Below, in pieces: positions 331 through 30,790 of a stretch of 64,000 nucleotides of DNA. The notes under the pieces were generated by a model. The model saw only the letters and a program-made list of their open reading frames with translations. It was not told the DNA's origin and made no database searches. Location of the stretch: assembly GCF_008831285.2 (NCBI RefSeq), contig NC_045138.2, positions 29,793,934-29,857,933 on the forward strand, written 5' to 3'. The DNA is from Nymphaea colorata (taxonomy: Eukaryota > Streptophyta > Magnoliopsida > Nymphaeales > Nymphaeaceae). Position numbers and translations under genes: made by a program. Position 1 is the first letter of the stretch, and each line of letters starts with the position of its first letter.

Positions 331-928
331 AATCTCCCAGAAAACACTAAGGATTGGATGAAAATCGGCGCCCTCAACGGAAAGGAAGATTGACGTGAAC
401 GCGGACTGAAGCCACGGGGCTCGCACTGCAAGGTTTCGTTCGGGCAAATAAGGCTGTGAATGGATCGGATTGTTCAAAGGTACTCGATCCAGATACCATC
501 ACTCGGATAAATCTCTAGACTGGGGCGCTCATTTGGACCGGATTCGTTTTTTTCGCTCAAATTGGATTCTCTTCGGGTTCGTCGGGCTTTTGAAGTTGCT
601 TCGATCAATACCCAAATGAAACCCAATCGCTTCTCTCTCCCCAATATAAGAAAGGATCTGGGGACTAACTCAAAAAAAATCTTCGTTCAAACCGATCAAG
701 AACTGGAACTTTCTCCACATTTTGATTGCAAGGTTAATGGAAGATTTGATGAATACAACAGAAAAAGGAAGCTTGTGTTTGAGCTAATCACGTGAATGGG
801 AGCAGTAAAAGATCTAGGAGCAACAACGTCGAAAGCGAAAATCTAAAAAACAAAAGGGACCAGATCAGACTATCGATTGATCGGAAGAGTTTACATGTTG
901 GGGGGTTGGAGTAGTTTAGTTTGGCTTT
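331..928. repeat. 3' flank of F-box block A, shared with block B
   Basis: This stretch matches 12805-13409 nearly base for base with scattered substitutions and small indels, and lies just downstream of the last exon of F-box copy A. Open frames persist in both copies on both strands: a minus frame ending at 229 and a plus frame at 562-795. The similarity does not drop at their ends, so I treat it as duplicated flank rather than as genes. An unrecognised terminal exon cannot be excluded. Confidence 0.6.
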
Positions 929-3678
929 TCAATCGAGTTCCCAGCCGGGGAATTCCAGTAGCACGGTAAGACGGTCCGGCCGGGTTGCCCGATGTTCCTC
1001 CACCGCCAGCCTCAATCGAACCACAAGATCCCAGGAGCGCCGCGCTTCCGCCGATGGGCTGATGATTATGGACGTCAGTCCCGGCGCCGCCTTGAGGAAG
1101 TACCGGACGAGCTCCTCGTCCCTTTGATAGCCTCCATACTGCTGCATAGTCAACGTCCTCAAATATGCGAGTGCAACTCTGACCTTCCTTAGCACGAACC
1201 GTGGATCCATTCCGTCCTCTGACGGGTTCATCTCGAACTAATAAAAATACAAAAAAAAGCACATGAAACCACGTTATATATATATATATGTATATAATTA
1301 GTTAAACCAATATTATTTTGAGATTGGTTTTAATATTTGAGATTGGTTTTTCAAGTATCTTTAGTTTGTAGGCCTGTCAATATTAGTCTTTGTGGAGAAA
1401 ATTAAGGAAAGAGAGACAGAGCAAGGAAAAAAGGGGAGGCCTCCAAGTGAACCTAGTTTTAACTCATTAATTCTCTCTCTCTATATGTGGACATGTGCGC
1501 AAATGTGCCTTAAAAAAGTTTTGTGCATGAAACCTGACTTTAGGAATTTGGGTTGCAAATCCTTTTCTTTTTTACTTGATATCAACATAAAAATGCGTTC
1601 AACATAAGATCAAAATTTAGAAAATAAACTATTAACTGATTCTATTTCTCTGCCACTAATAGATACGTCCAACTGAGCCAAAATTTGAAGTAATCACCAA
1701 TTAACACTTTCAACTTGATAAACTAATTGTATGAATCACATCTCATTCAGGTTAGGAACAAAAGGAAACAAAGAATAAATGAAAATACAGAACTAGCTAG
1801 ATTAATGTGCAAATAGAGTTCATAACACATGTATGCATGTATATGCATACCTCGATTTGGAAGTCACTAGATTCTTTATTGTGCATTTCAAAAATTTGGT
1901 TCATATTTTCAGATATGTAGGTTTACCAGCCAGATGGGAACTTGTTCGTTTTCATTGATAATAATTGGATTCAGATTCGATTCAGAAACTCAACTTTAAT
2001 GCTTCTCATATTCGAACATCGTTCGAGAAGTGTGCCAAGCCCGCGTAACTCCTCTACTGTGAGCCTTGCTCCCTGCACCACCATTTCCTCCACACCCGAT
2101 AAGTGGTTCCGGAACTCCGGCAACAGGTACAGATAGCACCACCTCCCGATAACCTTCCATGAAAGGGAAATCAACAACGGACAAGTACAGAATAAATACA
2201 TAGACGATTGAATTCATTCATATATACATCGCAGTTTGATTGAAGCTATACGTAAGTATGAACTCCACATGAAACGATAATGAATTAAAGAGCAACCGAT
2301 GCAGTAATGAAGTTGGTAAGGATCAAATATGATATTTGCAGCTTGGAATTAATGCAGAGAAACTCAGAGAAATGGAATTGCAGAGACAAGCAACAAACGC
2401 ACGATAAGTGTTCTCGCGGTGAGGATCAGCAAGCGAACAACACGAAGGCGTGAAAATGCATAGGTGATGATGAATTTTCTGCGCATCAGCATCGACGGAT
2501 GTAGAGGATTGATGTCCAGTCGAGCAGTTGGCCTTTCCTCGTGGGAGAGACGGAGAACGTCTTCGACCTCCTCCAAGACCAAGTTGGGCATGTTGAATTC
2601 GAAGGGAGGACGGCCCCTGAGGAAGAACTTGATCAGGTGTGGAGCTTCCACGGGGAGTTCCGCGCCGAGGCACGAACAGTCGGAAATGGAGAGGGTGTGG
2701 AGCAGGGGGAGGTCGCGAAGCAGGGACTGGAGAAAGAGGAAGGTGACGTGGGAGTTGGCTATGGCGAGAGTGGTGAGGGAGGGGAAGTCCATGGAGGAGC
2801 AGTGCTGATTGAAGCGGCAGCGTCGGAGTTGCAGCACCCTCAGTGATGTGCAGCCGTACTGATTGAAGTTCAACCTGTACTCCTCTTTGGATTCGGCGTC
2901 AACGTTGATGCAGATTTCCTCGATCATTAACCTTGAGAAAAAGACTTGAGCCAATAGTTGATCTCCTGCTTGATTGGAGCATCTCGAAGATTGTATCTGT
3001 TTCCAAGTATACAACATGTTGAAGAGAAAGATCATATGGTGTATTTATAATCTGCCATACTATATTTTGTCAGAATTTCAATCTCTACCAGCATTTTTTT
3101 TATAAATAAAGAAAAAGATACATAATCCCCAAGATTCATTGCTTTCCTTTTTTTGTGATAGAGAGAGATCTTAGGTCTCTTACCAATATTCGGGAGGCAT
3201 GTAGAATTCAGAAGATTTTAGATTGAATTCTTGCGAGTTAACAGTAGACCAGTACATTTAAACCATACCCTTATGCTCAGAATTCTGGAAAAGTACCTTT
3301 TAATTGATTAAATTTTGTAGTGAAACTGCACTAAGAAATTCTGCAGCGGCGTTGCATCCGATTCCTAGCTAGCTACAAAATTTACCTAATGCTGAAACGT
3401 TCAAGCGGCTTCCGACCATCCCGGATCGACAGGAGACGGGTGACTGCTTCAGTAAAGTTGCGTCTGGCCTGTTTCTGAGACGACCGGCGAAGCGAAGGAA
3501 CGGGGAAATCGGCGATGTCGAACTCCAGGGCCGGCAGTTTGGGCAACAGCCTCCTCCACCGACCTGTCGCGGCGCAGGTTCTTATCGTGGACTTGAGATC
3601 CAGATGCCTGAGAATTTTAAGCATGATGGTCTCCTTGAGATCGGTGATTCGAGTAGCCCTTTTTCTTCTCCGAGGCAT
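929..3678 (-). pseudogene. F-box/LRR protein gene, copy A (frameshifted)
   Basis: This is a copy of an F-box/leucine-rich-repeat gene, a family that usually supplies the substrate-recognition subunit of SCF ubiquitin ligases. Exon 1 (start codon 3676-3678) encodes a basic N-terminus, then an F-box core with LKETIMLKILRHLDLKS and RWRRLLPKLPALEFD. A second exon (about 2400-3000) encodes LRR-like segments such as LRVLQLRRCRF and LPLLHTLSISDCSCLG. Further exons lie at about 1975-2150 and 929-1215; the last encodes a C-terminal segment ending in FPGWELD. Against copy B, exon 2 lacks 2 bp near 2933, so the LRR part is out of frame with the start of the exon. About 180 bp of the preceding intron are also missing. 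I infer a pseudogene, although a truncated F-box-only protein could still be made. Confidence 0.75.
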
Positions 3679-4846
3679 GGGCGCTGAAGAACGTTGCAGG
3701 AATTAGGTACCTCCGCTGCATGGAGAAAAGAAGATGTATGCTTGTTCTTCTTAGATACGCTGATCAATGGTCTTCCTTCTTTCGATGAAGAAAACACAAC
3801 AAAAAACTGAAGACACTTTCTGGCTTAAAAAGGTGCAGTGCAGACCAATATGAGACTTCCTAGCTTATCCCACATTTTCTGCATAAAAAGCAGGTCCAAG
3901 AAAGACCAAAAGAAATGCATGATCCGTGATTCTCATAAATCTTGATTTGTTTTGGTAGGAGAAACTGCACAATCGAGCGCCCAAGAACCCAGCTTCTGCT
4001 ATAGCAAATGGAACAAGAACAAGTTAGATGAGCACAAGACATGCTATTATTCCAATGTTTTTGTCACACGAATGCTCTCCACATGAACAAATTCCATCGA
4101 TAGATTCATCTCCACCATGGGGATTCAAGCTGAAGGCTCTGGAAAGGGAGCGTCTACGAGCGCAATGCAACCGGAAGTTCTGATGGTTCAATGAAGGTAA
4201 CGGATAAAGGATGCAAATAACAAAGAAAGAAGAAGTTGACTCAATCTCCATGCAAGAACATGTAACCGACAAAACTGAAGAAGATGAAAATGAAAGACTA
4301 GTCGTCAGCCTGGAAGAGCATCATCCCAGAGAGAGCAAGAGTCAGAGAGGGATGCGTGTATCCTTGAAATGACGGCGTGCGTTATTCTGCACTGATGCTC
4401 GATCGATCTGCTTCCCTGGTTCTGCAATAATGGATACAAGAATTATCAGAGAGAGAGAGTACTGCTGGTGACTGTAATAGGAAAGTTAAAACGAAAGGGT
4501 CAAAATCTCCCACGGGGCTTGGCTGAGCTCTGCAATTATCTCGAGCTTTTGATGAACTTGAGATCGGCGAGGCTCATTTTCAAGTGAACTAAAGCTTAAA
4601 TATATCAATGCTCGGTTCATTTAGCTTCTCTACCAAGTTGAATTACCTTCTTGAGCAGACACATTGAAAAGCATAAAAAACCTTTCAAGATATTCAAAAA
4701 TAATAAAAATAGGTATACATTTGACACCTTGGTATAATTGGCAAATGATCAGACTGCCTCTTGCCACCAATTTGATTACAACTGACCAAGTTAGGCTGGT
4801 TCAAGTCAGTTTAGACTGATCATGTATATGTATACATATACATATA
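2865..4846 (-). repeat. Left arm of the F-box inverted repeat
   Basis: From the LRR exon of copy A through exon 1 and the roughly 1.1 kb upstream of it, this sequence is the reverse complement of 5570-7698, with small indels. The arm runs up to the first bases of the transposon-like element in the centre. It contains the start of the F-box gene, its probable leader and its upstream region. Confidence 0.8.
3679..4846 (-). other. Upstream and probable leader region of F-box copy A
   Basis: The region is conserved with upstream sequence of copies B (16261-17503) and C (5570-6734). The frame at 4024-4272 is preserved in copy B, but I do not recognise a product and the surrounding noncoding sequence is equally conserved. 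A short GA microsatellite lies near 4450. I see no firm core promoter. Confidence 0.4.
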
Positions 4847-5569
4847 TAAGGCTGGGTATTGGGCCGGGCCATCGGCAAGTACCCGATACCCATGCCTGGT
4901 TAAAGGTACGGGCCGGCCTGAATGGGCCCGATAAGCTCCAATGAGCCTGATAATTTTTTTAATATTTTTTTATTTATATATATATATATATTATTTTATT
5001 ACAATTAATTATATTTATATATTATTTTATGTTAAAAATATATTTTTTTAAATTTAATCCGGTTGGGCCCGAATCAAGCTCATGCTCCCGTTTTAATGGT
5101 CAGGCTGAACCCAAGTTCAGGCTCCAGGTGTCGAGCCGACCCTATGCCTACGTTTATTCCTACTCAGTAGCGCAAAAAGGTTGTCCCGCCACTCAACCAG
5201 TGAGTTGCCCAAGTAAGGTTGTCACGTCACTCGAACCAGTTAGTTGCCCACCTGGTGGCTGGCCTGAGCGGTGAGCCAAACTCCCTCGGGGCAATCTAAT
5301 CGGATCTCTCTAACCATGCTTCAAGAAACTTAACTGTAATGCCTTAGTAATACTTGAAGAGATTCTAGGTAGGTGGTCTGCTGTTAGTTGTGCTTCAGCC
5401 ACCAATATTTCCTGAATAATATGTTCTTTAAATCTTGCAACTCCAAGACCCTCAACCATGACACAAAGGTGAGGAAGAGAGAGAAAGAGAGCGCCAAAAT
5501 GAAAATTCATTAAAAACAAAATGTGGTGATAAGATGTCACCCAACGGCCCGGCCCAGCGCCCAGCCTTA
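4847..5569. mobile_element. hAT-like non-autonomous DNA element at the palindrome centre
   Basis: The left end reads TAAGGCTGGGTATTGGGCCG and the reverse complement of the right end reads TAAGGCTGGGCGCTGGGCCG. These imperfect terminal inverted repeats are rich in GGGCCGGGCC, as in many plant hAT-type elements. The interior holds AT-rich sequence and a further segment (about 5030-5540) also found at 17850-18277. No transposase is visible. The 8-bp flanks (tacatata and ggtaaata) are not a convincing target-site duplication, so the superfamily call is tentative. Confidence 0.55.
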
Positions 5570-7695
5570 GGTAAATATATATACACACATGATCAACCTA
5601 GCTAAACTGGCTTGAACCAGCCTAACTTGGTCAGTTGTAATCAAATTGGTGGCAAGAGGCAGTCTGATCATTTGCCAATTATACAAAGGTGTCAAATGTA
5701 TATCTATTTTTACTGTTTTTTAATATCTAGAAAGGTTTTTTATGCTTTTCAATGTGTCTGCTCAAGAAGGCAACTAAACTTGTAGAGAAGCTAAAAGAAC
5801 CGAGCATTCATATATTTAAGCTTTGGTTCACTTGAAAATGAGCCTTGCGATCTCAAGTTCATCAAAAGCTCGAGATAATTGCAGAGCTCAGCCAAGCGCC
5901 GTGGGAGATTTTGACCCTTTCGTTTTAACTTGCCTATTACAGTCACCAGCAGTACTCTCTCTCTCTGATAATTCTTGTATCCATTATTGCAGAACCAGGG
6001 AGGCAGATCGATCGAGCATCAGTGCAGAATAACGCACGCCGTCATTTCAAGGATACACGCATCCCTCCCTGACTCTTGCTCTCTCTGGTATGATGCTCTT
6101 CCAGGCTGACCACTAGTCTTTCATTTTCATCTTCTTCAGTTTTGTCGGTTACATGTTCTTGCATGGACATTGAGTCAACTTCTGCTTTCTTCGTTATTTG
6201 CATCCTTTACCCGTTACCTTCATTGAACCATCTGAACTTCCGGTTGCATTGTGCTCGTAGACGCTCCCTTTCCAAGTCTTCAGCTTGAATCCACATGGTG
6301 GAGGCGAATCCATCAATGGAATTTGTTCATGTGGAGAGCATTCTTGCGATAAGAACATTGGAATAATAGTATGTCTTGTGCTCATCTAACTTGTTCTTGT
6401 TCGATTTGCTATAGAAGAAACTGGGTTCTTGGGTGCTCGATTGTGCAATTTCTCCAATCAAAACAAATCAAGATTTATGAGAATCACGAACCATGCATTT
6501 CTTTTGGTCTTTCTTGGAGCTGCTTTTTATCCAGAAAATGTGGGATAAGCTAGGAAGTCTCATATTGGTCTGCACTGCACTTTTTTAAGCCACAGAGTGT
6601 CTTCAGTTTTTTGTTGTGTTTTCTTCATCGAAAGAATGAAGACTATTGATCAGCATATCTAAGAAGAACAGGCATACATCTTCTTTTCTCCATGCAGCGG
6701 AGGTACCTAATTCCTGCAACGTTCTTCAGCGCCCATGCCTCGGAGAAGAAAAAGGGCTACTCGAATCACCGATCTCAAGGAGACCATCATGCTTAAAATT
6801 CTCAGGCATCTGGATCTCAAGTCCACGATAAGAACCTGCGCCGCGACAGGTCGGTGGAGGAGTCTGTTGCCCAAACTGCCGGCCCTGGAGTTCGACATCG
6901 CCGATTTCCCCGTTCCTTCGCTTCGCCGGTCGTTTCAGAAACAGGCCAGACGCAACTTTACTGAAGCAGTCACCCGTCTCCTGTCGATCCGGGATGGTCG
7001 GAAGCCGCTTGAACGTTTCAGCATTCCAGAATTCTGAGCATATGGGTATGGTTTAAATGTACTAGTCAACTGTCAACTCGCAAGAATTCAATCTAAAATC
7101 TTCTGAATTCTACATGCCTCCCGAATATTGGTAAGAGACCTAAGATCTCTCTCTATCACAAAAAAAGGAAAGCAATGAATCTTGGGGATTATGTATATTT
7201 TTCTTTATTTATAAAAAAAAATGCTGGTAGAAATTGAAATTCTGACAAAATATAGTATGGCAGATTATAAATACACCATATGATCTTTCTCTTCAACATG
7301 TTATTTAATCATTGTCATTATCATGTCTGCCTCTTTCGTCCTGCATTTTGTATACTTGGAAACTGCAGATTTCTCTCTCTCTTTCTTATCTTGTTGCGTT
7401 ACTTGGAAACAGATTGATTTCTGTCACTTGTCTTATTCTATTGTATACTTGGAAAGAGACCACTCTCTCTCTCTCCATCCCTCTCTCATGTTCTGTTGTA
7501 TACTTGGAAACAGATACAATCTTCGAGATGCTCCAATCAAGCAGGAGATCAACTATTGGCTCAAGTCTTTTTCTCAGAGGTTAATGATCGAGGAAATCTG
7601 CATCAACGTTGACGCCGAATCCAAAGAGGAGTACAGGTTGAACTTCAATCAGTACGGCTGCACATCACTGAGGGTGCTGCAACTCCGAGGCTGCC

Positions 7696-7698
<3 letters not shown>
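5570..7698 (+). repeat. Right arm of the F-box inverted repeat
   Basis: This is the reverse-complement partner of 2865-4846. It opens with the counterpart of the sequence beside the left end of the central element and continues through the upstream region, the F-box exon, an intron and the start of the LRR exon. It keeps an intron segment with repeated tatacttggaaa motifs that copy A has lost and copy B retains. Confidence 0.8.
6735..7698 (+). pseudogene. F-box/LRR protein gene, copy C (truncated, inverted)
   Basis: Exon 1 begins at the same ATG as copies A and B and encodes the same F-box (LKETIMLKILRHLDLKS, then RWRSLLPKLPALEFD). Where A and B have a splice donor after ERFSI, this copy has lost about 105 bp and reads into a stop a few codons later. 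The LRR exon resumes near 7514 with sequence matching NYWLKSFSQRLMIEEICIN in the frame used by copy B, then stops in the middle of LRVLQLRGC at 7698, where an AT microsatellite begins. The donor loss and the missing 3' exons make a full F-box/LRR product impossible. A protein of about 100 residues containing only the F-box could still be translated. Confidence 0.8.

Positions 7699-7752
<54 letters not shown>
7699..7752. repeat. (AT)n microsatellite at the copy C breakpoint
   Basis: Twenty-seven AT units run without interruption and separate the truncated LRR exon from unrelated sequence. Confidence 0.95.
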
Positions 7753-7754
<2 letters not shown>

Positions 7755-8214
7755 CCGTGAAAGCTCTTGCAGAGTTTATCCTCCTGTATATGGTAACTCT
7801 TTGTTCATTCTCGGGCCTCGGATACTAAGCACCCACTGCGGCTTGTGCATCGAAATACAGGACGAGTACCTTACCTAATTGAACTACAAATTGGGCACCA
7901 TGGAATCGAGGGAAAGAAAGTTGTTCAATATACCACAATTAGGTAATGAGCATTAATGATCGCGAAGCGCATAATAGAGTCTCAAAGGGCATGATGACAT
8001 CAATATATATGTTGTGTTAATCACACAATATAGTGAAATGGATAGGCATGATGAGGATACAACATCGTGTATGTTTGGTGCATAGTAAAATATGGTTCGG
8101 CCATGGAAATTTTAAAAACTGTGGATACAAGGATACAACATCGTGTATGTTTGTGTGTGGGTGTGTGTGTGTGTGTGTATGTGTGTATAGAAATGAAGCA
8201 AAATAGTTCATAGG
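7753..8214. repeat. Fragment shared with 18.8-19.0 kb
   Basis: About 7755-7950 resembles 18797-18985, including the segments gaaagctcttgcagagttta and tcattctcgggcctcggata, with internal indels. I do not recognise a gene family. The copy here starts directly after the AT run. The rest is low-complexity sequence with a GT run near 8155-8180. Confidence 0.55.
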
Positions 8215-11200
8215 AGAAATATTTGGAAAGTGTTTGTACATTATAAATAACAGTACAGTGAATACTATCTCTAACGCCAATGGTGGCCTTACGTAGACTA
8301 GAAAAGTTTCCAGAGATGGTAAATAATTTCTCATCTTTGCTTTATAAGTTTTTTCGTGGTATTAGAGCAAGGCTTGCTGAAAAAAGCTTATACCTCAATG
8401 AGGGCCTCCAGATTACCAAAAAGGATCATTGACTTCTATGATTTCTTCGTCAAAATAAGAACTAAACCAGTTTTAAATAAGATCTTCCGTTGAAGACGAG
8501 GATGACCGTCACATAGCAGCATTAATGAAGGCACTAATGAAGCTGTTACAGGTTACGGATAATCAAAGAATGGTAACCGCCATGCAGCAGTCCACTGAAT
8601 GCCATAGGGAAAAGAAAGATCTTTATTGTCACCGTTCCTTGTGTTTAGGAGAAATATTTTGAAAAGTGCTTCAAAATACATCATGATAACAGGGCGGTGC
8701 ATAATATCAATAAGGCCCATGGTGACCTTCGGTGGGTAATGTAACACTCCAAAGTTAATCTAATCTTTACTTTTGTTTTATAACAGAAACAATTCATCAT
8801 CTAGCGAATTCCTATTTCCTTCTTAAAAGTGCGTTTCAAAGGGAAACACCGAGCTTAGCACTCCTGAGAGCAATGGTGGGGCTTCCTGGCGTACCTTCCC
8901 GAACCCAACAAGTCACCCCAAGGGCTTGAGCTCATAGAAAGAGTGATGCCGATGAAAGTTGGAAGTGCAACCGCCTGCCCGGAGACATGGACTTACCCTT
9001 TTTTTTTTTTTGCTGTAGGTTCTGACTTCAAGCAAACTTTAATGAGCAGTAATGTTAACGGAAATTAAATTTGGTAAAACAAACATGAACATATCAGCCA
9101 TCAAATCAGTCATTTTTCCAAAACAACATCTGAAGATATTCAATTTCAATTGCATGCCGTGATTATTCGTGTCTTATACCAAAAGTAGCCCTAGGGTCAG
9201 CACAAAGCAAACCTGGTGATGACCAAATCCTGATCGCTAACCAACTGGATGTCCTGCGCTATGCACATCAGCAAAACGCATTTGGTAGCAGAGAAAAGTT
9301 TCTGCATTGCCTTAGAAGGTTACTCCTCATCATATCAGCTATATATCTTACCAATAATGACATTTAACAACAGCAAGGCTGAGCACATCCCGCTGACCCA
9401 CGTCTGAAAACCACATCCCGCTGACCCACGTCTGAAAACCAGACCGGGTCAGAGAAGGATTTCTCCCCAAAAAAATTTCCAAGTACCTTGTGACACCCTA
9501 TCATTCAACGGTTTAGGTGCTTTAACCAAATCATCCCTTCCAATCAGTGTACTAAAGACCGTCGAATAGAGACCCTGAGAACTAGGAATCAAGTCTCTAA
9601 CCTGCCAAAAGAAACCCACCTATTTCTCCTCCAACAAAAACGAAGAACCAAGGATCTTTAAGTTGCTCAAACATCCCCTACCAACAATGCCAAAGGAAAA
9701 GGTTCGCTTTTTGCAAAATTCATGAACGTCTGAGATAGGATCATTTGGGAGATCTGATTAAACTATATGACACACAGGTTGGACCACTTAATGGATCTAT
9801 GAACCAGGTCTAAGCGATGGAGCAACATCACACAATCATGACCTGTTAATCCACAGACGTGAGAGAGCTCACACCTGACTCTTAACAATGAATCAACCCG
9901 TAGCCAAACCCAATAACAGAAATTTATGGGCAGATTTAGAGTTGACACAGACCTGGTCCGATCCCACTCTTTGAAAGGTCTAGGGCAGTCTCCTTGACTG
10001 TGATCCACGACCTTCCCTTCTTGCTAAGCATCAAATTCATCGGCTAAACTGACCTACATGGCAAGACAACCTCAAACTTGCAGTCAATATCAGAACGGTT
10101 GCACCATCAGAAACAAACATAAGTTACATGAGGGGGAGAGAGTTTTCTTTGATTGGGCGGTCAAGATTTATCATTATATAAGATGACACAAGTCGTGACC
10201 TCTCACCGCCATGCGGAAGCCAACTATATCCCTCGAGAAGAACAAAAGAAACCCGAAGAATTTCACCAACAAATGTCTAACAGCTCCACTTAGGTTCTCT
10301 CTCACAAGGGAAGAGCTCAGGGGTTTTATCAAACAACAAGCGTGTGATTTCACAATTTGTGTGTGTGTGTGTGTGTCAGAGAGAGTGAGAGCAAGAGAGA
10401 AAGAGGGGGGCAAAAAGCTAAACCCCTGGCACGTATTAGGAGTACTCAGGTGATTGAGAATGTACATGGACTCTCATTGAAACTTTTCTTGGCAGAAAAG
10501 GCCCCGTCCTAGATGGTATAAAAAATCAACCTCCCACACAACCCCCTACTTATGACACATGGCAGCACGATATGTATATGAAAAAAAAAAAAAGAGTAGA
10601 GGAAAAACGATCGAAATTATGATGCAGCCAAGAAGGAAACTTCGATCTCCTGCAAGGACTTCCCCTTGGTCTCCACTACGTTCCACTTCACGAACACCGC
10701 AGCTAAGATGCAGAAAAAAGCAAATATGGAGTACAAGACCTCAGCCCCAAGTTGCTCCAAAAGGCGTAGGAACTTAAAAATACCAAATCCTTAAAAACAT
10801 CTTGTTCTCATTTCAAGATAAACTCACAAGGAACTTAAAAATGTAAAGTGGTCATCCAAAAGTGTAGCTTTTCTATTGAATGGTTCAATGACAGAGACCC
10901 AGATTTTCGTAATGATATTAGAAATTTTTGCCTGGTGACTAACAATTTGCATTACATAGAATCCAAAGATACGCATGTAACTGATAAACAGACGTCAAAA
11001 GCCAATTAGTAAAGCTTGTAACTGATACAACATTGAACCTATAGGGGAATGTTAGTAAATGAACTCGGAGAAATATGGAACATGCGTATAAGCCAATTAG
11101 TAAAGCTTGTAGCTGATACAACATTGAACCTATAAGGGAATGTAAGGGAACGAACTCGGAGAAATATGGAAAAAAGTTCCTGTGTGCTTGCGGAACAAGA

Positions 11201-12796
11201 CACCAGAAATTTTTATCCAAAAGCAAAATCTACCATTCCAAGGAAGCTTCCTAGAAGAAGCATCTTTCTCCCAAGTTTATCCATCAAAAGCATAGCAACA
11301 ATTGAACCTGCACAAAAGAATACACAGGTTTTATAGATGAAGATGCAATCTGCCAGTTAATGTATTTCAAATAATGGATACTTGAAAGGAAATGCACTTT
11401 ATATTTACCTGTCAAGTTGGATAAACCAACACAAACATTTGCAAGGTTCGAGGGTACACCAGCCCTTTTGAAAACAGCTGATGAAAAGTAAAAGACAGCA
11501 TTTATCCCAGATAGCTGCTGTAATCCGAACAATATAGATCCAATCATCACAACTGTAAAGTGGAGATATCAGCACAGGGCGAACAAAATATGACTAAGCA
11601 ACAAAGTTTCAGGCACGCTTGGAAAACGGCAAGCTCATGTTGCCAACTGAAAGTTCATGCAGTCATGTTTGACATTTGATCAAGAATGGGTATTAATGAA
11701 GAGAAATTGCATAAGGCATAAATTAGACAGGTCAACAAGTAGCGTATAGACCAACAACATGGAACATTTTTCTTTGAAATAACTGCAAGGCATATGCCAC
11801 TGCAACTCAAGTCTGCAGATGTCAGTGATTTCAGTAGAACAGACATATTCTCTGTAGCTGCAGGCACGCTTGGAAAACCAATGGCACACAAGGATATTCG
11901 CTTGAATAAAATCAACAAACAGATTCCTAATTGAGATATAAAAAGACGAGAAAATCCATAGCAACTGAACCATGGAAATTCACCAAATAAAGGGGGATTG
12001 CCATGAATACCTTTGAAATGACGACCATAAAGCAACTCTGACAGCCTCACACTCTCAGCATCATCCCCCTTGTCTAAGCGTGACAATTCTGCAATTGCAA
12101 GTTTCACATGAGCTGCACTTAAGAGCCTCTCAAGCTCTGCTTCAGCTTCATTGCATCTCCCTTTCTGTATAGGATATCATATTAAGTCGCAGGAAACAAA
12201 CTAATACAATCTGGAAATGAAGAACTTCTCAAATAAGCAAAGATAAATAACACAAATGGACCGAAAGAATTTTAACTACAAGGTTCAGCTTGTAAAGCCA
12301 CAGGACTCTCGGCACAGAGTTCTATGCCAAGAGCTAATCTTGTAGCTGGGATGATAGATACCCAGAAACAAAGCCGCCACCTAGACCAAATTGACATTAG
12401 ATCAATAATTAAATTGAAGGAACATTTCATGAAACTGAAGTGAAAAAATTGTTTTCATTTGGTGGTTCAATAGAAAACAAGCTATCAATTATCTTACCAT
12501 CCAGGAGTTTCTTTTGATGGAATTCCAATAAAAAGAGCCATTATGATACCAAGACATGTTGCAATCTGAATAAAGCTGTCATATGTGCCTCTGACAGAAG
12601 AGGGAGAAACCTGCGAAAATAAGTGAGCAAAGGATACATGTTATTAAGGTAAGCTATAATAGCTACAGAAATGAACATCATTTATACCTCAGTAACATAA
12701 AGAGAAGCCACAGCTGGACCCAGTCCCATCCCTATACCAACGAAAAATCATCCAAGAAGCATACCATCCAAACGTGGTGTTGTTGCACTGCAATGA
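8215..12796. repeat. Segmental duplication, truncated copy (transporter 3' half and flank)
   Basis: The block aligns co-linearly with 28632-35101. It includes about 2.4 kb downstream of the hexose transporter and the transporter exons. It lacks roughly 1.9 kb relative to the other copy, corresponding to about 31171-33105, and ends abruptly at about 12796 inside the transporter. A 28-30 bp tandem duplication (cacatcccgctgacccacgt) is seen near 9385-9440 only in this copy. Confidence 0.85.
10617..12796 (-). pseudogene. Hexose transporter (plastidic glucose transporter 2-like), decayed partial copy
   Basis: Exons equivalent to the middle and C-terminal parts of the gene at 31018-37657 are recognisable, for example MMIGSILFGLQQLSGINAVF near 11550. 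Several lesions rule out function. The 5' exons are missing because the block ends at about 12796. A CGA-to-TGA change gives a stop in the exon near 12750. A 2-bp deletion near 12300 shifts the SPQWLYK exon, whose splice donor GT has become CT. A deletion of about 1.9 kb removes two exons and fuses half of the last exon to an intron near 10775. The terminal stop position survives as TAA. Confidence 0.88.
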
Positions 12797-13409
12797 AAAT
12801 GAAACCTCCCAGAAAACACTAAGGTTGGGATGAAAATCGGCGCCCTCAACGGAAAGGAAGATTGACGTGAACGCGGACGGAAGCCACGGGGCTCGCACTG
12901 CAAGGTTTCGTTCGGGCAAATGAGGCTGTGAATGGATCGGGTTGTTCAAAGGTACTCGATCCAGGTACCATCACTCGGATCAATCTCTAGACCGGGGCTC
13001 TCATTTGGACCGGATTCGTTTTTTTCGCTCAAATTGGATTCTCTTCGGGTTCGTCGGGCTTTTGCCTTTTGAAGTTGCTTCGATCAATACTCAAATGAAA
13101 CCCAATCGCTTCTCTCTCCCCGATATAAGAAAGAATCTGGGGACTAACTCAGAAAAAATCTTCGTTCAAACCGATCAAGAACTGGATCTTTCTCCACATT
13201 TTGAGCGCAAGGTTAATGGAAGATTTGATGAATATACAACAGAAAAAGGAAGCTTGCGTTTGAGCTAATCACGTGAATGGGAGCAGTAAAAGATCTAGGA
13301 GCAACAACGTCGAAAACGAAAACCTAAAAAACAAAAGGGACCAGATCAGACTATCGATTGATCGGAAGAGTCTACATGTTGGGGGGTTGGAGTAGTTTAG
13401 TTTGGCTTT

Positions 13410-16260
13410 TCAATCAAGTTCCCAGCCGGGGAATTCCAGTAGCACGGTGGGACGGTCCGGCCGGGTTACCCGATGTTCCTCCACCGCCAGCGTCAATCGA
13501 ACCACAAGATCCCAGGAGCGCCGCGCTTCCGCCGACGGGCTGATGATTATGGACGTCAGTCCCGGCGCCGCCTTGAGGAAGTACCGGACGAGCTCCTCGT
13601 CCCTTTGATAGCCTCCATACCTCTGCACAGTCAACGTCCTCAAATGAGCGAGTGCAACTCTGGCCTTCCTTAGCACGAACCGTGGATCCGTTCCGTCCTC
13701 CCAGGGGTTCATCTCGAACTGATAAATACAAAAAAGGAAAAAGCAGATGAAACCCGGTGTTAAACCAATATTATTTTATTTTGAGATTGGTGTTTCAAGT
13801 ATCTTTATTTTGTGGCGTCCGTCAAAATTAAAATGAAAGAGAGACAAAGCAAGGGAGGCCTCCAAATGAAACTAGTTTTTAACTCATTAATTCTCTCTCT
13901 AAAAAAGTTTTGTGCATGAAACCTAATTTTGGGAATATGGGTTGCAAATCATGTTCTTTCTTACTTGATATCAATATAAAAATGCTTTCAACATATGATC
14001 GAAATTTAGAAAATAAACTATTAACCGATTGTATTTCTCTCCCACTAATGAATCCGTCGCCAAAATTTGAAGTAATCACCAAATAACACTTTCAACTTGA
14101 TAAACTAATCTGTATGAATCACATCTCATTCAGGTTAGGAACAAAAGGAAACAAAGAATAAATGAAAATACAGAACTAATAAGATTAATGTGCAAATAGA
14201 ATTCCTAACACATGTATGCATGTATATACATACCTCGATTTGGAAGTCACTAGATTCTTTATTGTGCATTTCAAAAATTTGGTTCATATTTTCAGATACG
14301 TAGGTTTACCAGCCAAGATGGGAACTTGTTCGTTTTCATTGATAATAATTGGATTCAGATTCGATTCAGAAACTCAACTTTAATGCTTCTCATATTCGAA
14401 CAACGTTCGAGAAGTGTGCCAAGCCCGCGTAACTCCTCTACTGTGAGCCTTGCTCCATGCACCACCATTTCCTCCACACCGGATAAGTGGTTCCGGAACT
14501 CCGGCAACAGGTACAGATGGCACCACCTCCCGATAACCTTCCATGAAAGGGAAATCAACAACAGACAAGTACAGAATAAATACATAGACGATTGAATTCA
14601 TTCATATATACATCGCAATTTGATTGAAGCTATACGTAAGTATGAACTCCACATGAAACGAGAATGAATTAAAGAGCAACCGATGCAATAATGAAGTTGG
14701 TAAGGATCAAATATGATCTTTGCAGCTTGGAATTAATGCAGAGAAACTCAGAGAAATGGAATTGCAGAGACAAGCAACAAACGCACGATAAGTGTTCTCG
14801 CGGTGAGGATCAGCAAGCGAACAACACGAAGGCGTGGAAATGCATAGGTGATGATGAATTTTCTGCGCATCAGCATCGACGGATGTAGAGGATTGATGTC
14901 CAGTCGAGCAGTTGGCCTTTCCTCGTGGGAGAGACGGAGAACGTCTTCGACCTCCTCCAAGACCAAGTTGGGCATGTTGAATTCGAAGGGAGGAGGGCCC
15001 CTGAGGAAGAACTTGCGCAGGTGTGGAGCCTCCACGGGGAGTTCCGCGCCGAGGCACGAACAGTCGGAAATGGAGAGGGTGTGGAGCAGGGGGAGGTCGC
15101 GAAGCAGGGACTGGAGAAAGAGGAAGGTGACGTGGGAGTTGGCTATGGCGAGAGTGGTGAGGGAGGGGAAGTCCATGGAGGAGCAGTGCTGATTGAAGCG
15201 GCAGCGTCGGAGTTGCAGCACCCTCAGTGATGTGCAGCCGTACTGATTGAAGTTCAACCTGTACTCCTCTTTGGATTCGGCGTCAACGTCGATGCAGATT
15301 TCCTCGATCATTAACCTCTGAGAAAAAGACTTGAGCCAATAGTTGATCTCCTGCTTGATTGGAGCATCTCGAAGATTGTATCTGTTTCCAAGTATACAAC
15401 AGAACATGAGAGAGGGATGGAGAGAGAGAGAGAGTGGTCTCTTTGCAAGTATACAATAGAATAAGACAAGTGACAGAAATCAATCTGTTTCCAAGTAACG
15501 CAACAAGATAAGAAAGAGAGAGAGAAATCTGCAGTTTCCAAGTATACAAAATGCAGGACGAAAGAGGCAGACATGATAATGACAATGATTAAATAACATG
15601 TTGAAGAGAAAGATCATATGGTGTATTTATAATCTGCCATACTATATTTTGACAGAATTTCAATCTCTACCAGCATTTTTTTTATAAATAAAGAAAAAGA
15701 TACATAATCCCCAAGATTCATTGCTTTCTTCTTTTTGTGATAGAGAGAGATCTTAGGTCTCTTACCAATATTCGGGAGGCATGTAGAATTCAGAAGATTT
15801 TAGATTGAATTCTTGCCAGTTAACAGTTGAGCAGTACATTTAAACCATACCCTTATGCTCAGAATTCTGGAAAAGTACCTTTTAATTGATTAAATTTTGT
15901 AGTGAAACTGCACTAAGAAATTCTGCAGCGGCGTTGCATCCGATTCCTAGCTAGCTACAAAATTTACCTAATGCTGAAACGTTCAAGCGGCTTCCGACCA
16001 TCTCGGATCGACAGGAGACGGGTGACTGCTTCAGTAAAGTTGCGTCTGGCCTGTTTCTGAAACGACCGGCGAAGCGAAGGAACGGGGAAATCGGCGAGGT
16101 CGAACTCCAGGGCCGGCAGTTTGGGCAACAGCCTCCTCCACCGACTTGTCGCGGCGCAGGTTCTTATCGTGGACTTGAGATCCAGATGCCTGAGAATTTT
16201 AAGCATGATGGTTTCCTTGAGATCGGTGATTCGAGTAGCCCTTTTTCTTCTCCGAGGCAT
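13410..16260 (-). CDS. F-box/LRR protein, intact copy B
   Basis: This is the best-preserved F-box/LRR gene of the window and a likely SCF E3 ligase substrate receptor. Exon 1 (15968-16260) encodes a basic start, then an F-box with LKETIMLKILRHLDLKS and RWRRLLPKLPALEFDL, ending in phase 2 at ag|gtaaat. Exon 2 opens at about 15381 after tttccaag..acag and reads RYNLRDAPIKQEINYWLKSF, the linker usual before LRRs in plant F-box/RNI proteins. It continues into LRR segments (LRVLQLRRCRF, LTTLAIANSHVTFLFL, LHTLSISDCSCLG). An exon near 14355-14550 (LLPEFRNHLSGVEEMVV) and a last exon (13410-13700, MDPRFVLRKAR to FPGWELD) complete it. The exon 2-3 and 3-4 boundaries are my inference and need transcript data. 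No stop or frameshift is seen in the exons. The target protein is unknown. Confidence 0.7.
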
Positions 16261-17503
16261 GGGCGCTGAAGAACGTTGCAGGAATTAGGTACCTCCGCTG
16301 CATGGAGAAAAGAAGATGTATGCTTGTTCTTCTTAGATTTGCTGATCAATGGTCTTCGTTCTTTCGATGAAGAAAACACAACAATAAACTGAAGACACTT
16401 TCTGGCTTAAAAAAGTGCAGTGCAGTGCAGACCAAGATGAGATTTCCTAGCTTATCCCACATTTTCTTCATAAAAAGCAGGTCCAAGAAAGACCAAAAGA
16501 AATGCATGATTCGTGATTCTCATAAATCTTGATTTGTTTTGGTAGGAGAAACTGCACAATCGAGCGCCCAAGAACCCAGCTTCTGCTATAGCAAATGGAA
16601 CAAGAACAAGTTAGATGAGCACAAGACATGCTATTATTCCAATGTTCTTGTCACAAGAATGCTCTCCACATGAACAAATTCCATCGATGGATTCATCTCC
16701 ACCATGAGGATTCAAGCTGAAGACTCTGGAAAGGGAGCGTCTACGAGCACAATGCAACCGGAAGTTCAGATGGTTCAATGAAGGTAACGGATAAAGGTTG
16801 CAAATAACAAAGAAAGAAGAAGTTGACTCAATCTCCATGCAAGAACATGTAACCGACAAAACTGAAGAAGATGACAATGAAAGACCACAAATAGTCGTCA
16901 GCTTGGAAGAGCATCATACCACAGAGAGCGAGAGTCAGAAAGAGATGCGTGTACCCTTGAAATGACGGCGTGCGTTATTCTGCACTGATGCTCGATCGAT
17001 CTTGTCTCCCTGGTTCTGCAATAATGGATACAAGAATTATGAGAGAGAGAGAAAGAGCACTGCAGGTTATAAACTCAGAGCAGGGTGGCGATTCGGGTCA
17101 CTGAAATGAATCTCATCCTGGAACCATATAATTGATCAAGGAGCACCACGACACATATTTACAGTAGAGAAAATACATTTAAAGTTGATCAAATGGATAT
17201 CTGCATGTTGTGGCTTGGATTGTAATTGGCAAGTTAAAACGAAAGGGTCAATCTCCTACGGCGCTTGGCTGAGCTCCGCTATTACCTCGAGCTTTGGATG
17301 AACTTGAGATCCGCCAGGCTCATTTTCAAGTGAACCAAAGCTTAAAAATATCAATGCTCGGTTCATTTAGCCTGTCTACCAAGTTTAATTACCTTCTTGA
17401 GCAGACACATTGAAAAGCATAAGAAACCTTTCAAGATATTAAAAAATAATAAAAATAGATATACATGTGACACCTTGGTCTAATTGGCAAATGATCAGAC
17501 TGC
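16261..17503 (-). other. Upstream region of F-box copy B
   Basis: Sequence shared with the upstream regions of copies A and C. It probably holds the transcription start and a leader. No core promoter motif stands out. A GA run lies near 17040. Confidence 0.4.
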
Positions 17504-17677
17504 ATATATATATATATATATATATATAGCAAAGGGGAATTAATCTAACATGAACTTAAGAAAGTGGAAGGAGTATTTCATTGCTCAAGTGAAAATTGAA
17601 GCCCTTTGATTTCTATTTGCATTAATTAAGGCTTTGTGTAAGTCTCCAATGCTTTTCAACCAGTATATCGGTCCTAC

Positions 17678-18277
17678 TTGGGTACCGGGCCGGGCCATCG
17701 GTAGGTACCCGGTATCCGGCTCTGAAAAAAAGGATGCCGGCCTAGCTCGGGTGAGCTCGATAATTTTTTAATATTTTTTATTAATTATATATAAATATAA
17801 TATTTTATTACTACTAATTATATTTATATATTATTTTATATTTAAAAATATATTTTTTAATTTAATCGAGTTGGTTGGGCTTGGGTTGGCCTCGAGCTCC
17901 GATTTTAATGGTCAGGCCGAGCTCGGCTCGGGTTTTGAGTGTAGCCACGCCACTCGAACCAGTGAGTTGCCCACCAGGTGAGCGATGATCCAAACTCCTT
18001 CGGGGCAATCTAACCGGATCTCTCTGACCATGCTTAAAGAAACTTAACTGTAATACCTTAGTAATATTTGAAGAGATTCCAAGTAGATGTCCCGCTGTTA
18101 GTTGTGCTTCAGCCATCAGTATTTCCTTCAACCTGAATAATATGTTCTTTAAACCTTGCAACTCCAATATCCTCAACCAAGCGTGACACAAGGGTGAGGG
18201 AGAGAGAGAGTGAGGGCGACAAAATGAAAAAAAAAAAATCATTAAAAACAAAATGTGGTGACAAGATGTCACCAATC
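17678..18277. mobile_element. hAT-like element fragment lacking its right end
   Basis: The left end (ggtaccgggccgggccatcg) resembles the left end of the element at 4847-5569, and the interior from about 17850 matches that element, including the stretch near gatctctctgaccatgctta. The match ends at gatgtcacc without the GGGCCGGG-type right terminus, so this is a truncated relative. Confidence 0.5.
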
Positions 18278-18425
18278 AATAGAGACAAAAGAAGAAGATC
18301 AAAGGGACCTAAAGAGAAAAATTAGCAAAGAAAACAAAAACAAAAACATGAACACTGAACAGAAACCAGAACAAGAACAAAACAGGAGAGAGAGAGAGAG
18401 AGAGCTTAGAAGTCAAAATGGTGGC

Positions 18426-18489
<64 letters not shown>
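18426..18489. repeat. (AT)n microsatellite
   Basis: Nearly pure AT dinucleotides with a single break, about 60 bp long, in the intergenic region downstream of the truncated hAT-like element. Confidence 0.95.
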
Positions 18490-18491
<2 letters not shown>

Positions 18492-19380
18492 TAGTTAACC
18501 GCCGAAAAGGAAAATTGTGAACGAAATTATATTGGCAATTTTGCCACCATCAGTCACATCTGAATGGGTATGACGACGCATTCAAAGGGACCTAAGTTCC
18601 TAACAGTCTTTAAGATGTCCAGACTCCGTCTACAAATCTCTCGATGGAGTTAAAGGTTGCGATTTTATTTTCAAAAAGCAGGATCCATTGTGTGATTGCT
18701 AGCGAGATAACTGTGCTCCAGCAATGTATGCAATCACATTCTCTCTTTCTTCGAGGGGCGCATGGACAGACACTCATACGTTCAAGGAACAAGAAAGTGT
18801 ACCGCGAAAGCTCTTGCAGAGTTTATCGTCCTGTATAGTTTCAACGTGTTGAATGACACTGAGGATGGTAACTTTGTTCATTCTCGGGCCTCGGATAGTA
18901 AGCACCCACTGCAGCTTGTTCATCGTGAACTACAAATTTGGCATCATGGAATCAAGGGAAAGAAAGTTGTTCAATATAACCTCTCCTGAGCTTAATATTA
19001 GATGAATGAAAGCTTAAATATGATAAAACATGGTTCATTTAGCTCGTTTACCAGCCTTACTATGGAGTGAAGCACATACTATGTCATAATTGGTCTTGCA
19101 GTAGAAGCTCAAAAAAGGAAGAGAAGAAAAAGAAATAGGTTATATAGGATCTGCAAAACAACTTGCACCACTCATAATTCAGGCAACCTTTCATTTTGAA
19201 AAATGCAGAGATATGAACAGATATAGAGATACACTACGCTGGCAAATGTTTCAAAGGCAAAAGCAACATGATTAGAAGTTACTTCCACATAGCAAACCAT
19301 GTCACATGAGCACATAGCAAACTATGTTACATGAGCACGAGTTGCGGGTGCCAAAGCGATACATCCCAAAAAATTTAGAT
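18490..19380. other. Unclassified intergenic tract with duplicated fragment
   Basis: The part at 18797-18985 is the fuller version of the fragment at 7755-7950. Short overlapping frames at 18644-18989 have no recognisable domain. I cannot assign a gene or a transposon family. Confidence 0.4.
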
Positions 19381-19421
19381 GCCATGGTGCTGCGAGGATA
19401 TTTTATTATTATTATTATTAT

Positions 19422-19453
<32 letters not shown>

Positions 19454-20150
19454 ATAGAACCAGCATGCATAGATTATTATTACAATTTAGTTATTAATGT
19501 ATATAACATATTTGCATAATTGTATTACATAATGAAATATCAAAACAACATATATTATATATAATATATTATATATAGTAATTTAGTAATATGGCATACT
19601 AACAGTCTAACATAAAAGCAAAAATTTAAAATTTAAAATTAAAACTTCAAAAGAACAACACTAAACACAACTGGTCGGCTGCATAATGCTTATATAAAAA
19701 AGCTTATATTATATACTATAAGTTTATAACATGACAATGTATCACCATATCAGTCGCAAAGTATATATGCACGGTTGCATATGTACACGACTGACAATAT
19801 ATATTTGTTAGTTGAACTTTAAAACTTTTATATAGATTCAATTACTGAACAAGCATCTAAAATAAAATGTTAAAATGTATACAACAATAATACCAAAAAA
19901 AGGGCCACATTTAGACCGGATGCGGGATGACCGCACTCGACTCGAGTTTGATGCGAGTCGAGTGCGTGTCAAAAATGGAAAAATATAGTCGGTGCAACTG
20001 ACCGCACCGACTCGCATTGACTAGGCTTGGGTACGAGTCGGAACTGCACCCATGTCAGGTGTGCACCCGACTCGACGCGTCTCGAGAGCAGGAAAATAGA
20101 AAAGTTCGTGTGACTTAGATAGCAAATGATTCAAAATGCAACAATCACAT
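19381..20150. other. AT-rich intergenic DNA with probable transposon remnant
   Basis: A (TTA)n and (AT)n tract at about 19402-19455 is followed by AT-rich sequence. Between about 19910 and 20090 there are repeated ctcgactcg/gagtcgagtg words in both orientations, typical of degraded transposon sequence. No gene is seen. Confidence 0.4.
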
Positions 20151-20332
20151 TGAAGTTGTATTTAGGCTGCCTGAGTATAATCACCGACAGGACCAATCAC
20201 TGCAGCTGCAAAAGAATGCAAAGTGCAACTCCGTCCCTCCACAAAGTGGATGCTATTGTGCAATGACCGACTTTGGGCTACAAAAGATTCTTCCCAATCC
20301 TGTAGCACATTTTGTAGCACCTCAGAAACTAA

Positions 20333-20516
20333 ACAGAGCACGTTGGAAGAGGATGCTGTGTAAGCGATGCAGCACAATGGTTCAGTCAACAACTTGTGAT
20401 GGTGTAGAAAAAGAAATGAGGGCACAAGCAGAGCACGTTATCAATAGGACACTGTTTAAGCAATGCAGCGGGATAGTTCTCACTCAACAACTTGTGATAG
20501 TGTAGGAAAAGAAATG
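20333..20516. repeat. 95-bp tandem duplication
   Basis: Two imperfect direct copies with a 95-bp period, each carrying a segment like taagc(g/a)atgcagc followed by caacaacttgtgat(g/a)gtgta. They lie downstream of the pentatricopeptide gene. Confidence 0.75.
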
Positions 20517-20544
20517 CTACCCATCCCTTGAACTGGTTTTACAG

Positions 20545-20735
20545 GACCAAGGCATAAACCTCCATCATCATCACCAGTGGCACCTGCAGGAACAGCAACC
20601 TTGAAACGGTGAAAGCAATTTGTATTCCTCATGATCATGAGATGGCCAGATAGTTTCATAGAAGAACGGCAATAACCACGCATACACAAAGATTCTTCTT
20701 TATCCGGTTTGGGATGCCAACAGGAATGGCCAAGG
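20545..20735 (-). pseudogene. Degenerate duplicate of the DYW tail
   Basis: This stretch resembles 20780-20925, the end of the pentatricopeptide gene. The translated remnant SMKLSGHLMIMRNTNCFHRF corresponds to the functional gene's SFMKLASKVTGRLIIMRDTN and FHHF. The CxxCH metal-binding part is altered (CMRGYC) and no upstream repeats exist, so it is a tandem partial copy without function. Confidence 0.7.
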
Positions 20736-20753
20736 CATAAACCTGCATAACCA

Positions 20754-22688
20754 TCACCAGTAATCCCTACAGGAACAGCAACCCTCCTTGAAATGATGAA
20801 AGCGATTTGTATCCCTCATAATGATGAGACGCCCTGTGACTTTCGATGCCAATTTCATAAAAGAATGGCAGTCACCACACACACGAAGGTTCTTCATTAT
20901 CCGAATTGGGATGCCAACAGGAATGCTTATGAGGGCAAAGGAAAGTGCCAGCTTCTCACTATGGTGCTTCAGTAACTTTTCCTTGAATTCCTCCCCTATA
21001 TCATGCAGGTCGTGATCAGTCTCTACTCTATAACCAATTACCTTTATTTCTTCAGTCAAATCCTCCAGCTTTTTGTAGATCTCATCAATTCTTGAATGGT
21101 TCATATCGCCAACAACAAATGTGTGCACAGTGTCCTTGACTTCAACCCAACTCCTCCCCTTCTCCTTTTGGACTCCACTATCCTTCAACCTCTTTCTTGA
21201 TTCTGAAACATCAAACCATTTTCCATTGGCAGCATAAATATTTGATAATAAAACATGGTTCCCAGCATTTCTAGGTTCCAGTTCAAATAGACGCTGAGCA
21301 GCAATTTCTGCAAGTTCAATGTTTCCATGAATCCTGCATGAACCCAATAAAGATCCCCACATTGAAGCAGTGGGTTCAAATGGCATCTTCTTGATCAACT
21401 CATCAGCTTCAAAAAGCATACCAGCTCGGCCAAGTACATCAACCATACATGCATAGTGATTGACATTTGTTTTCACATTGCAGTCTCTGATCATTAGATC
21501 AAAATAACGCCGAGCCTCATTGACGAACCCACCTCGTCCACAAGCAGAGAGAACAGAGATGTATGTTATCTCATTCGGCTTTGCACCTGATTGTTGGGCC
21601 TTTTCAAAAACAATCATGGTCTCACTACAACGAGCATGTCGTGAGAAGCCAGAGATCATTGCATTCCATAAGACAATGTTCCTCTCATTGGCAATTGCAA
21701 ATGCAGAATAAGCTTCTTCAATGTTCCCAGACTTAGCATACATATCGACCAGAGAAGCCACTACAAAGAGGTCCAAGTTCAAACCAGATTTAATAATCGT
21801 TGAGTGAATCTGGTTACCTTCTATTAGAGCAGCTAGGCTTGCACATGCACTCAGTGCAGATGAAAGTGTAAATTTGGTTAGTTCCAGTCCCAGTTTTTGA
21901 GCTCTATGCAACAGTTCTAAAGCTTCTTCATGTAGGTCATTCTGCACATATCCAGCTATCATTGAACTCCAGGTAACATCACTCCTTTCAGGCATATCTT
22001 CAAATATAAAAGAAGAATCTTTAATTAAATTGCATTTTGCATATACATCCAATAGTGCCGTCCCAACATAAACATTAGAATGGAGTGCACTTTTAATCAC
22101 ATAAGCATGCAACTGTCTGCTTTCAACAAGAGCCATTTTTGTTGCACATGCACAAAATATACTTGGAAGAGTAAACTCATTAGGCTGTACTCCTTCCCTC
22201 AGCATCAATCTGAAAAGCTTAAGGGCCTCTTCTTTCTCTTGATTCTGGGTATAAGCACCGATCATTGTATTCCATGAAACTACACTTCTCTCAGGCATCT
22301 TTGAAAAGAGCTCTTTTGCAAAATCAATGAAATCGCATCTGGAATACATGTTTATTAGAATATTTGACATCAATATATCCATTTGCAGACCAGCTTGGAT
22401 AACCTTTGCATGGCAGATCTTCCCTTCTGATATAGATCTCCTTCTTATACAGTCCTGCATCAATTGCTGAAGATTGAACCTGACCAAATCATCATCCACG
22501 AATTTAATGCTGTTTCCTGTGGCCACCCCTTCCAAATTTCCCGAGATGGAGGTACAAACACATCTCCACTGCACAAAGACATGGATATAGAGCTGCCTTG
22601 GTCTGAAAGACAAAGGGTTCATCATCTTTCTTAGTAAAAATAAGCTGTGCTCTCTCCAAAATGGTAAAACTGACAATGATTTCATCAC
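20754..22688 (-). CDS. DYW-class pentatricopeptide repeat protein
   Basis: This single-exon frame of 644 codons encodes a PLS-type pentatricopeptide protein. Members bind organellar RNA in a sequence-specific manner, and those with a DYW domain act in C-to-U RNA editing. The N-terminus is basic and hydrophobic with few acidic residues until about residue 50, consistent with an organelle transit peptide. Repeat signatures run from about residue 85 to 430 (for example VVSWNTMIGAYTQN, VTWSSMIAGYVQN, IVLWNAMISGFSRH). E and E+ regions follow (MWGSLLGSCRIHGNIELAE, SWVEVKDTVHTFVVGD). The DYW domain keeps HSEK near residue 570, CGDCH, and the terminal CSCRDYW, so the deaminase-type zinc ligands are intact. 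The start lies only 105 bp from the stop of the upstream gene on the same strand. The RNA target cannot be told from sequence. Confidence 0.95.
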   Translation of the reverse strand: MMKSLSVLPFWREHSLFLLRKMMNPLSFRPRQLYIHVFVQWRCVCTSISGNLEGVATGNSIKFVDDDLVRFNLQQLMQDCIRRRSISEGKICHAKVIQAGLQMDILMSNILINMYSRCDFIDFAKELFSKMPERSVVSWNTMIGAYTQNQEKEEALKLFRLMLREGVQPNEFTLPSIFCACATKMALVESRQLHAYVIKSALHSNVYVGTALLDVYAKCNLIKDSSFIFEDMPERSDVTWSSMIAGYVQNDLHEEALELLHRAQKLGLELTKFTLSSALSACASLAALIEGNQIHSTIIKSGLNLDLFVVASLVDMYAKSGNIEEAYSAFAIANERNIVLWNAMISGFSRHARCSETMIVFEKAQQSGAKPNEITYISVLSACGRGGFVNEARRYFDLMIRDCNVKTNVNHYACMVDVLGRAGMLFEADELIKKMPFEPTASMWGSLLGSCRIHGNIELAEIAAQRLFELEPRNAGNHVLLSNIYAANGKWFDVSESRKRLKDSGVQKEKGRSWVEVKDTVHTFVVGDMNHSRIDEIYKKLEDLTEEIKVIGYRVETDHDLHDIGEEFKEKLLKHHSEKLALSFALISIPVGIPIRIMKNLRVCGDCHSFMKLASKVTGRLIIMRDTNRFHHFKEGCCSCRDYW

Positions 22689-22793
22689 TGGACATCAGAT
22701 AACTGGAATTTGATTATAAGCTGAACTTCAGGATCAGATATTTGGTGCTAGATGGATTACAACAAGAGGTTTACTGGAGTTTAAAGGTTAAAA

Positions 22794-26287: not shown

Positions 26288-26326
<39 letters not shown>

Positions 26327-27022: not shown

Positions 27023-27095
<73 letters not shown>

Positions 27096-28295: not shown

Positions 28296-28326
<31 letters not shown>

Positions 28327-30455: not shown

Positions 30456-30460
<5 letters not shown>

Positions 30461-30511
<51 letters not shown>

Positions 30512-30512
30512 G
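30461..30512. repeat. (GT)n(GA)n compound microsatellite
   Basis: A run of 15 TG units is followed by 11 AG units. The paralogous site near 10130 has only agggggagagag. Confidence 0.95.

Positions 30513-30728: not shown

Positions 30729-30790
<62 letters not shown>

Follow-up and report, generated by a model that had tools for sequence, protein, structure and literature searches.

A palindrome spanning positions 2814 to 7697 of a 64,000-nucleotide stretch of the Nymphaea colorata genome (the window; contig NC_045138.2, positions 29,793,934 to 29,857,933, with coordinates counted from its first letter) is probably a partial inverted duplication of a gene of the F-box/leucine-rich repeat (LRR)/FBD type, situated in a small, decaying tandem cluster, probably neutral and probably produced by break repair. 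Three copies of the gene are involved, here called A, B, and C, and the arms of the palindrome belong to A and C, as follows.

2814 to 4870, minus strand: arm A, comprising part of LRR exon 2, intron 1, F-box exon 1 (3678 to 3386), the upstream region, and the first ~24 bp of a repeat resembling a miniature inverted-repeat transposable element (MITE).
5546 to 7697, plus strand: arm C, an inverted partial copy whose exon 1 open reading frame (ORF) starts at 6735, with ~98 bp lost at 7024/7025, including the exon 1 splice donor, and an LRR exon cut at 7697.
929 to 3678, minus strand: gene copy A, of the F-box/LRR/FBD type, a probable pseudogene with a frameshift.
13410 to 16260, minus strand: gene copy B, with exon 1 at 16260 to 15968, a frame open through exon 2, and an FBD exon from 13410 to ~13720.

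The inverted repeat was detected by BLASTN comparison of the window with itself and by a repeat search, and its head-to-head arms enclose a centre of 675 bp (4871 to 5545). In the self-comparison, A and C match in inverted orientation in three segments, with identities of 94.7% over 1487 columns (3388 to 4870 against 7025 to 5546), 97.5% over 279 columns (3013 to 3290 against 7302 to 7024), and 99.0% over 204 columns (2814 to 3016 against 7697 to 7494); the arms are ~2 kb long and highly complementary. This self-match scores 2314 bits, compared with a maximum of 33.7 bits for the best minus-strand self-matches of 50 triplet-block shuffles of positions 2700 to 7800. A preliminary description of this DNA had placed a head-to-head repeat of A and C at 2865 to 7698, each arm covering the F-box exon and its upstream region; the repeat is confirmed, with slightly different limits. 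The arms are not identical: 63 of 1842 ungapped sites differ within the core (2814 to 4757), the innermost part (4758 to 4870) is less well aligned, with 20 mismatches in 113 sites, and each arm has a private deletion, of ~197 bp in A and ~98 bp in C. Among the 21-mers of arm A, 941 of 2037 are unchanged in arm C.

Copy A is more than an arm, as it carries LRR and FBD exons like those of B, but it is frameshifted: a 1-bp deletion near position 2933, relative to both B and C, leads to a stop after codon 120. The ~197 bp that A lacks fall in intron 1. In C, where the splice donor is missing, exon 1 reads on for ~100 codons and then stops. Because A is frameshifted, and because C has lost this donor and has its LRR exon cut, A and C appear to be two decayed copies, with B apparently intact over exons 1 and 2. 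Under predicted splicing, B is the only copy in which no disabling change was seen in these two exons, to which the statement is confined; its frame runs for 308 codons before a stop is reached, and the final few of these are probably intronic. Two domains of B exceed the curated Pfam cut-offs, namely, LRR_At5g56370 (PF24758; E value of 1.2e-07) and FBD (PF08387; E value of 4.4e-05). The F-box (PF00646) is matched weakly and below the cut-off in B (E values of 0.015 for the exon 1 ORF and 0.085 for exons 1 and 2) and in the exon 1 ORF of C (0.073), and the exon 1 ORF of A has no Pfam F-box match at an E value of 0.1.

The space between the arms and the outer end of arm C contain the following features.

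4847 to 5156, plus strand: MITE-like repeat of ~310 bp, with the family ends TAAGGCTGGGCAC... and ...GATGCCCAGGCTTA.
5223 to 5541, no strand assigned: the rest of the centre, a flank common to copy B at 17946 to 18273 (83%).
7698 to 7752, no strand assigned: (TA)n run, the outer breakpoint of arm C, followed at 7754 to 7932 by sequence matching B's flank at 18801 to 18978.

The preliminary description had recognized a central element of roughly 0.7 kb; a centre of about that size is present, but it is not a single element, consisting instead of the MITE-like repeat and the flank common to B. We searched the 407.8-Mb assembly (783 contigs) with positions 4840 to 5575 and scored 40 of 616 first-look candidates, so that the counts are lower bounds. 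At least 42 matches were found; they include this locus, and two of them belong to B, one of which covers the flank only. Those listed are distributed over 13 of the contigs C1 to C14, with none of the listed matches on C10. An alignment of 29 sequences, consisting of the copy at 4847 to 5156 and 28 further loci (L003 to L030, B's copy among them; L001 and L002, which are this locus and B again, were left out), gives the inverted ends TAAGGCTGGGCA and GATGCCCAGGCTTA for the family. Being multicopy and having inverted ends, the repeat is best described as MITE-like. Among the matches listed, none other than B corresponds to the flank at 5223 to 5541. A terminal-inverted-repeat transposon occupying the whole centre (4847 to 5569), with GGCTGGG...-type ends at both edges, was considered but rejected, given that the family alignment places the repeat's far end at ~5156 and that the right part of the centre is the flank common to B.

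At the inner junction, the flank ends in CACC and is followed by 4 unassigned bases and then by the MITE's first ~24 bp in inverted orientation; at the outer junction, arm C is followed by (TA)n and then by the B-like flank. Reading the right edge of the centre as these inverted ~24 bp is the best option, although not a certain one, since that edge is also similar to the 3′ end of the repeat itself. In the position where A has C, B has 527 bp of other sequence (18274 to 18800), including a (TA)n run of its own at ~18427 to 18490.

Copy B itself belongs to a larger direct tandem copy of the A region, in which positions 331 to 5541 match 12803 to 18273 in pieces (BLASTN self-comparison). The intact homologue that had been noted within 13 kb of the palindrome is therefore real, and open in exons 1 and 2, but the direct duplication that contains it is larger than had been stated. 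In the 10 kb flanking the window on each side, no additional copy of the F-box segment was found. The window also contains a large imperfect tandem duplication (331 to 12796 and 12803 to 35101), in which 331 to 7932 pairs with 12803 to 18978 and 8211 to 12796 pairs with 28629 to 35101; in the second unit only, the two parts are separated by ~9.6 kb (18979 to 28628) containing a pentatricopeptide repeat (PPR)-DYW gene at 20754 to 22694.

Jukes-Cantor distances over the core are 3.3% between A and B, 3.5% between A and C, and 4.3% between B and C, and the core contains 19 changes specific to A, 40 specific to B, and 41 specific to C, the polarity of single changes being set from these three copies alone, without an outgroup. 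A and C share, against B, the segment at 4758 to 4845 and several indels, which fits the copying of C from A but, without an outgroup, could equally represent changes in B; the shared segment has itself diverged, as the mismatches in the innermost part of the arms attest. Similarity is mosaic along the sequence: between 3900 and 4299, A is nearer to B (10 differences in 400 sites) than to C (26 in 399), whereas between 4300 and 4757 it is nearer to C (19 in 456) than to B (33 in 456), a pattern that suggests conversion between copies. Exon 1 of A and that of C differ at only 2 of 291 sites, and because both differences change an amino acid, we see no sign of constraint on this exon.

DNA that has long been methylated loses cytosines in CG and CHG contexts, and the MITE-like family (4847 to 5156 and loci L003 to L030) offers a standard within this genome against which methylation can be judged. 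Relative to the family consensus, C-to-T changes number 312 of 1137 in CG, 243 of 1093 in CHG, and 204 of 1511 in CHH contexts (pooled, 555 of 2230 CG and CHG sites), and with this CG and CHG excess the methylation footprint is visible in this genome. Arms A and C together have C-to-T changes at 4 of 539 CG and CHG sites and at 10 of 953 CHH sites, only 14 events in all; the MITE ratio predicts ~10.4 CG and CHG events where 4 are observed (P value for 4 or fewer, 0.022). The corresponding counts in B are 4 of 275 and 7 of 474, and the observed/expected CpG ratios are 0.77 for A, 0.72 for B, and 0.71 for C. Outside the arms, A and B differ at 96 of 2379 sites, with T/A in A against C/G in B at 33 and the reverse at 21, differences whose direction is not polarized. 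By this proxy, A, B, and C are unlikely to have carried dense methylation of long standing; the proxy is blind to recent methylation and to purely posttranscriptional small interfering RNAs (siRNAs).

A segment containing the gene, the MITE-like repeat, and flank is thus present twice in direct orientation, as A and as B, and next to A the part that reaches from the beginning of the MITE (~24 bp of it) into LRR exon 2 recurs in inverted orientation as C, where it ends in the (TA)n run. To account for this structure, we infer a break or stalled fork at this microsatellite, repaired by the copying or joining of a flipped 2-kb stretch through fold-back or template switching. Afterwards, A would have been frameshifted and C would have lost its splice donor and 3′ part, while B stayed intact. 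Two more specific routes were dropped: fold-back primed by pairing of two MITE ends, as the junction lies ~390 bp beyond the MITE's far end, and a DUP-TRP/INV-DUP structure, as C is followed by the flank of unit 1 and not by the start of a next direct copy. Tandem clusters of F-box/FBD genes undergo birth and death of copies, and the locus resembles such clusters in its tandem copies, truncation, frameshift, and single open copy; it differs in that one copy is inverted and is otherwise ordinary.

Certain observations weigh against this account. Interlocus conversion, to which the mosaic similarity points, may blur the picture; with no outgroup, the origin of C in A and the sequence of events are both inferred; the near-identity of A and C in exon 1 could hint at conversion or at constraint; and the methylation test draws on few C-to-T events, with a yardstick polarized by the consensus of a GC-rich, gappy alignment.

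The preliminary description had proposed a hairpin-RNA locus. At such a locus, a transcript entering from outside, or starting within one arm and passing across the centre, would fold into double-stranded RNA (dsRNA), and Dicer-like enzymes would cut it into siRNAs acting on B or its relatives, as at PAI or GmIRCHS. We consider this unlikely, although several properties of the sequence would suit it. Perfect runs between the arms reach 191 bp, such that dsRNA would form readily if one RNA spanned both, and many 21-mers (985 of 2037 from arm A and 879 of 2132 from arm C) are unchanged in B; of the 273 21-mers in exon 1 of B, 168 are matched perfectly by arm A and 173 by arm C, making targeting possible in principle. 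Published accounts also leave room for a locus of this kind: endogenous inverted-repeat siRNA loci occur in plants, the inverted-duplication model of MIRNA origin permits convergent or divergent arms (PMC3237417), and the soybean CHS1-3-4 inverted repeat, with an intervening sequence of 5.71 kb, is tied to silencing that is induced in an unclear way (PMC13051633), a precedent under which a spacer and an unmapped promoter do not exclude a locus.

The orientation of the arms lowers the odds of a hairpin, without excluding it. Because they stand head to head with their own upstream regions on the inside, native transcripts should run outwards; any transcription would be divergent, sense, and directed out of the palindrome, and a hairpin precursor would not be expected by default, since it would require transcription that starts inwards. 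Two precedents with a described orientation and promoter are tail to tail and driven from outside. In the Arabidopsis strain Ws, PAI1-PAI4 is fused to a heterologous promoter outside the repeat, its repeats are methylated, and a minority of transcripts read through to give dsRNA (PMC3203196); the present locus likewise consists of a protein-coding gene duplicated in inverted orientation, whose homologues at other sites could be targets of silencing, but it is head to head, with no known outside promoter and no methylation-type C-to-T footprint. GmIRCHS of soybean is a 1,087-bp inverted repeat of pseudoCHS with a distance of 78 bp, lying behind a DnaJ gene promoter, for which dsRNA is reported (PMC13051633); in both loci a pseudogene is repeated in inverted orientation close to functional members of its family, whereas the locus described here is head to head with a 675-bp centre.

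Nor was an intact gene pointing inwards recognized on either side, whether on the right, where 6 ORFs were searched against Pfam, or on the left, where the 10 kb before the window contain only 4 ORFs of at least 100 amino acids (an ORF listing, with no family search). The nearest recognized gene directed into the palindrome is the following, which shares its strand with gene B, lies immediately downstream of that gene, and has a coding part that ends near 10620, ~2.9 kb from C.

10620 to 12796, minus strand: sugar-transporter (Sugar_tr) copy, its 5′ end cut by the tandem-duplication junction at 12796/12803, matching Sugar_tr in pieces that all lie between profile positions 126 and 452.

Elsewhere in the window, a direct repeat pairs 38829 to 39567 with 51233 to 51965 (739 columns, 94% identity).

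With respect to microRNAs (miRNAs), the locus resembles the inverted-duplication origin of MIRNA genes in having inverted copies of a family member, pseudogenes, and a MITE nearby, but that model involves foldbacks that are processed to miRNAs (PMC3237417), and at this locus every Rfam miRNA family stays below its cut-off. There are 0 matches at the gathering score in the whole window, and the 15 Rfam hits obtained between 2800 and 7760 at E values of up to 1 are all below the cut-offs and all overlap the (TA)n run at 7698 to 7752; we rejected them as low-complexity matches, and a MIRNA reading of the locus has no Rfam support. Among the titles listed in a literature search, 15 of 25, none deals with small RNAs from this locus.

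Action at the level of protein is very unlikely. Here, the short F-box-only polypeptides encoded by A (120 amino acids) and C (~100 amino acids) would compete with B for the SKP1 adaptor, and exon 1 is indeed open and near-identical in both, with the LRR part lost from both; however, the F-box matches are weak, all of them below the Pfam cut-offs, and the A-C differences in exon 1 both alter the amino acid. We also regard as highly improbable a head-to-head "promoter hairpin," in which transcription would start in the upstream region of one arm and proceed inwards through the MITE, so that the fold would cover the promoter and 5′ sequence and not the coding sequence. Finally, PacBio RSII reads can yield false palindromes. 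The N. colorata genome was assembled from such reads (PMC7015852), but an artefact of a chimeric or unsplit long read or of collapsed haplotypes is very unlikely, because near-identity would be expected of a read artefact and these arms have diverged by substitution and by private deletions, and because C ends in unrelated (TA)n followed by flank matching B's; the assembly error that the preliminary description had itself raised is, on the same evidence, unlikely.

If the locus is the ordinary duplication debris that we favour, it provides a well-dissected case of a possible origin of inverted gene copies in a tandem cluster of plant genes, through a MITE, a microsatellite, and a template switch. 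In that case it also shows that a hairpin-RNA locus is poorly predicted by a palindrome on its own and that the orientation of the arms and the presence of a promoter outside them should be examined beforehand. Were small RNAs to be found, this would be a head-to-head natural RNA interference locus with a geometry different from that of PAI1-PAI4 and GmIRCHS; and if the promoter hairpin were true, its siRNAs would act at the promoters of B and of genes related to it, silencing them, in an arrangement unlike the published tail-to-tail coding hairpins.

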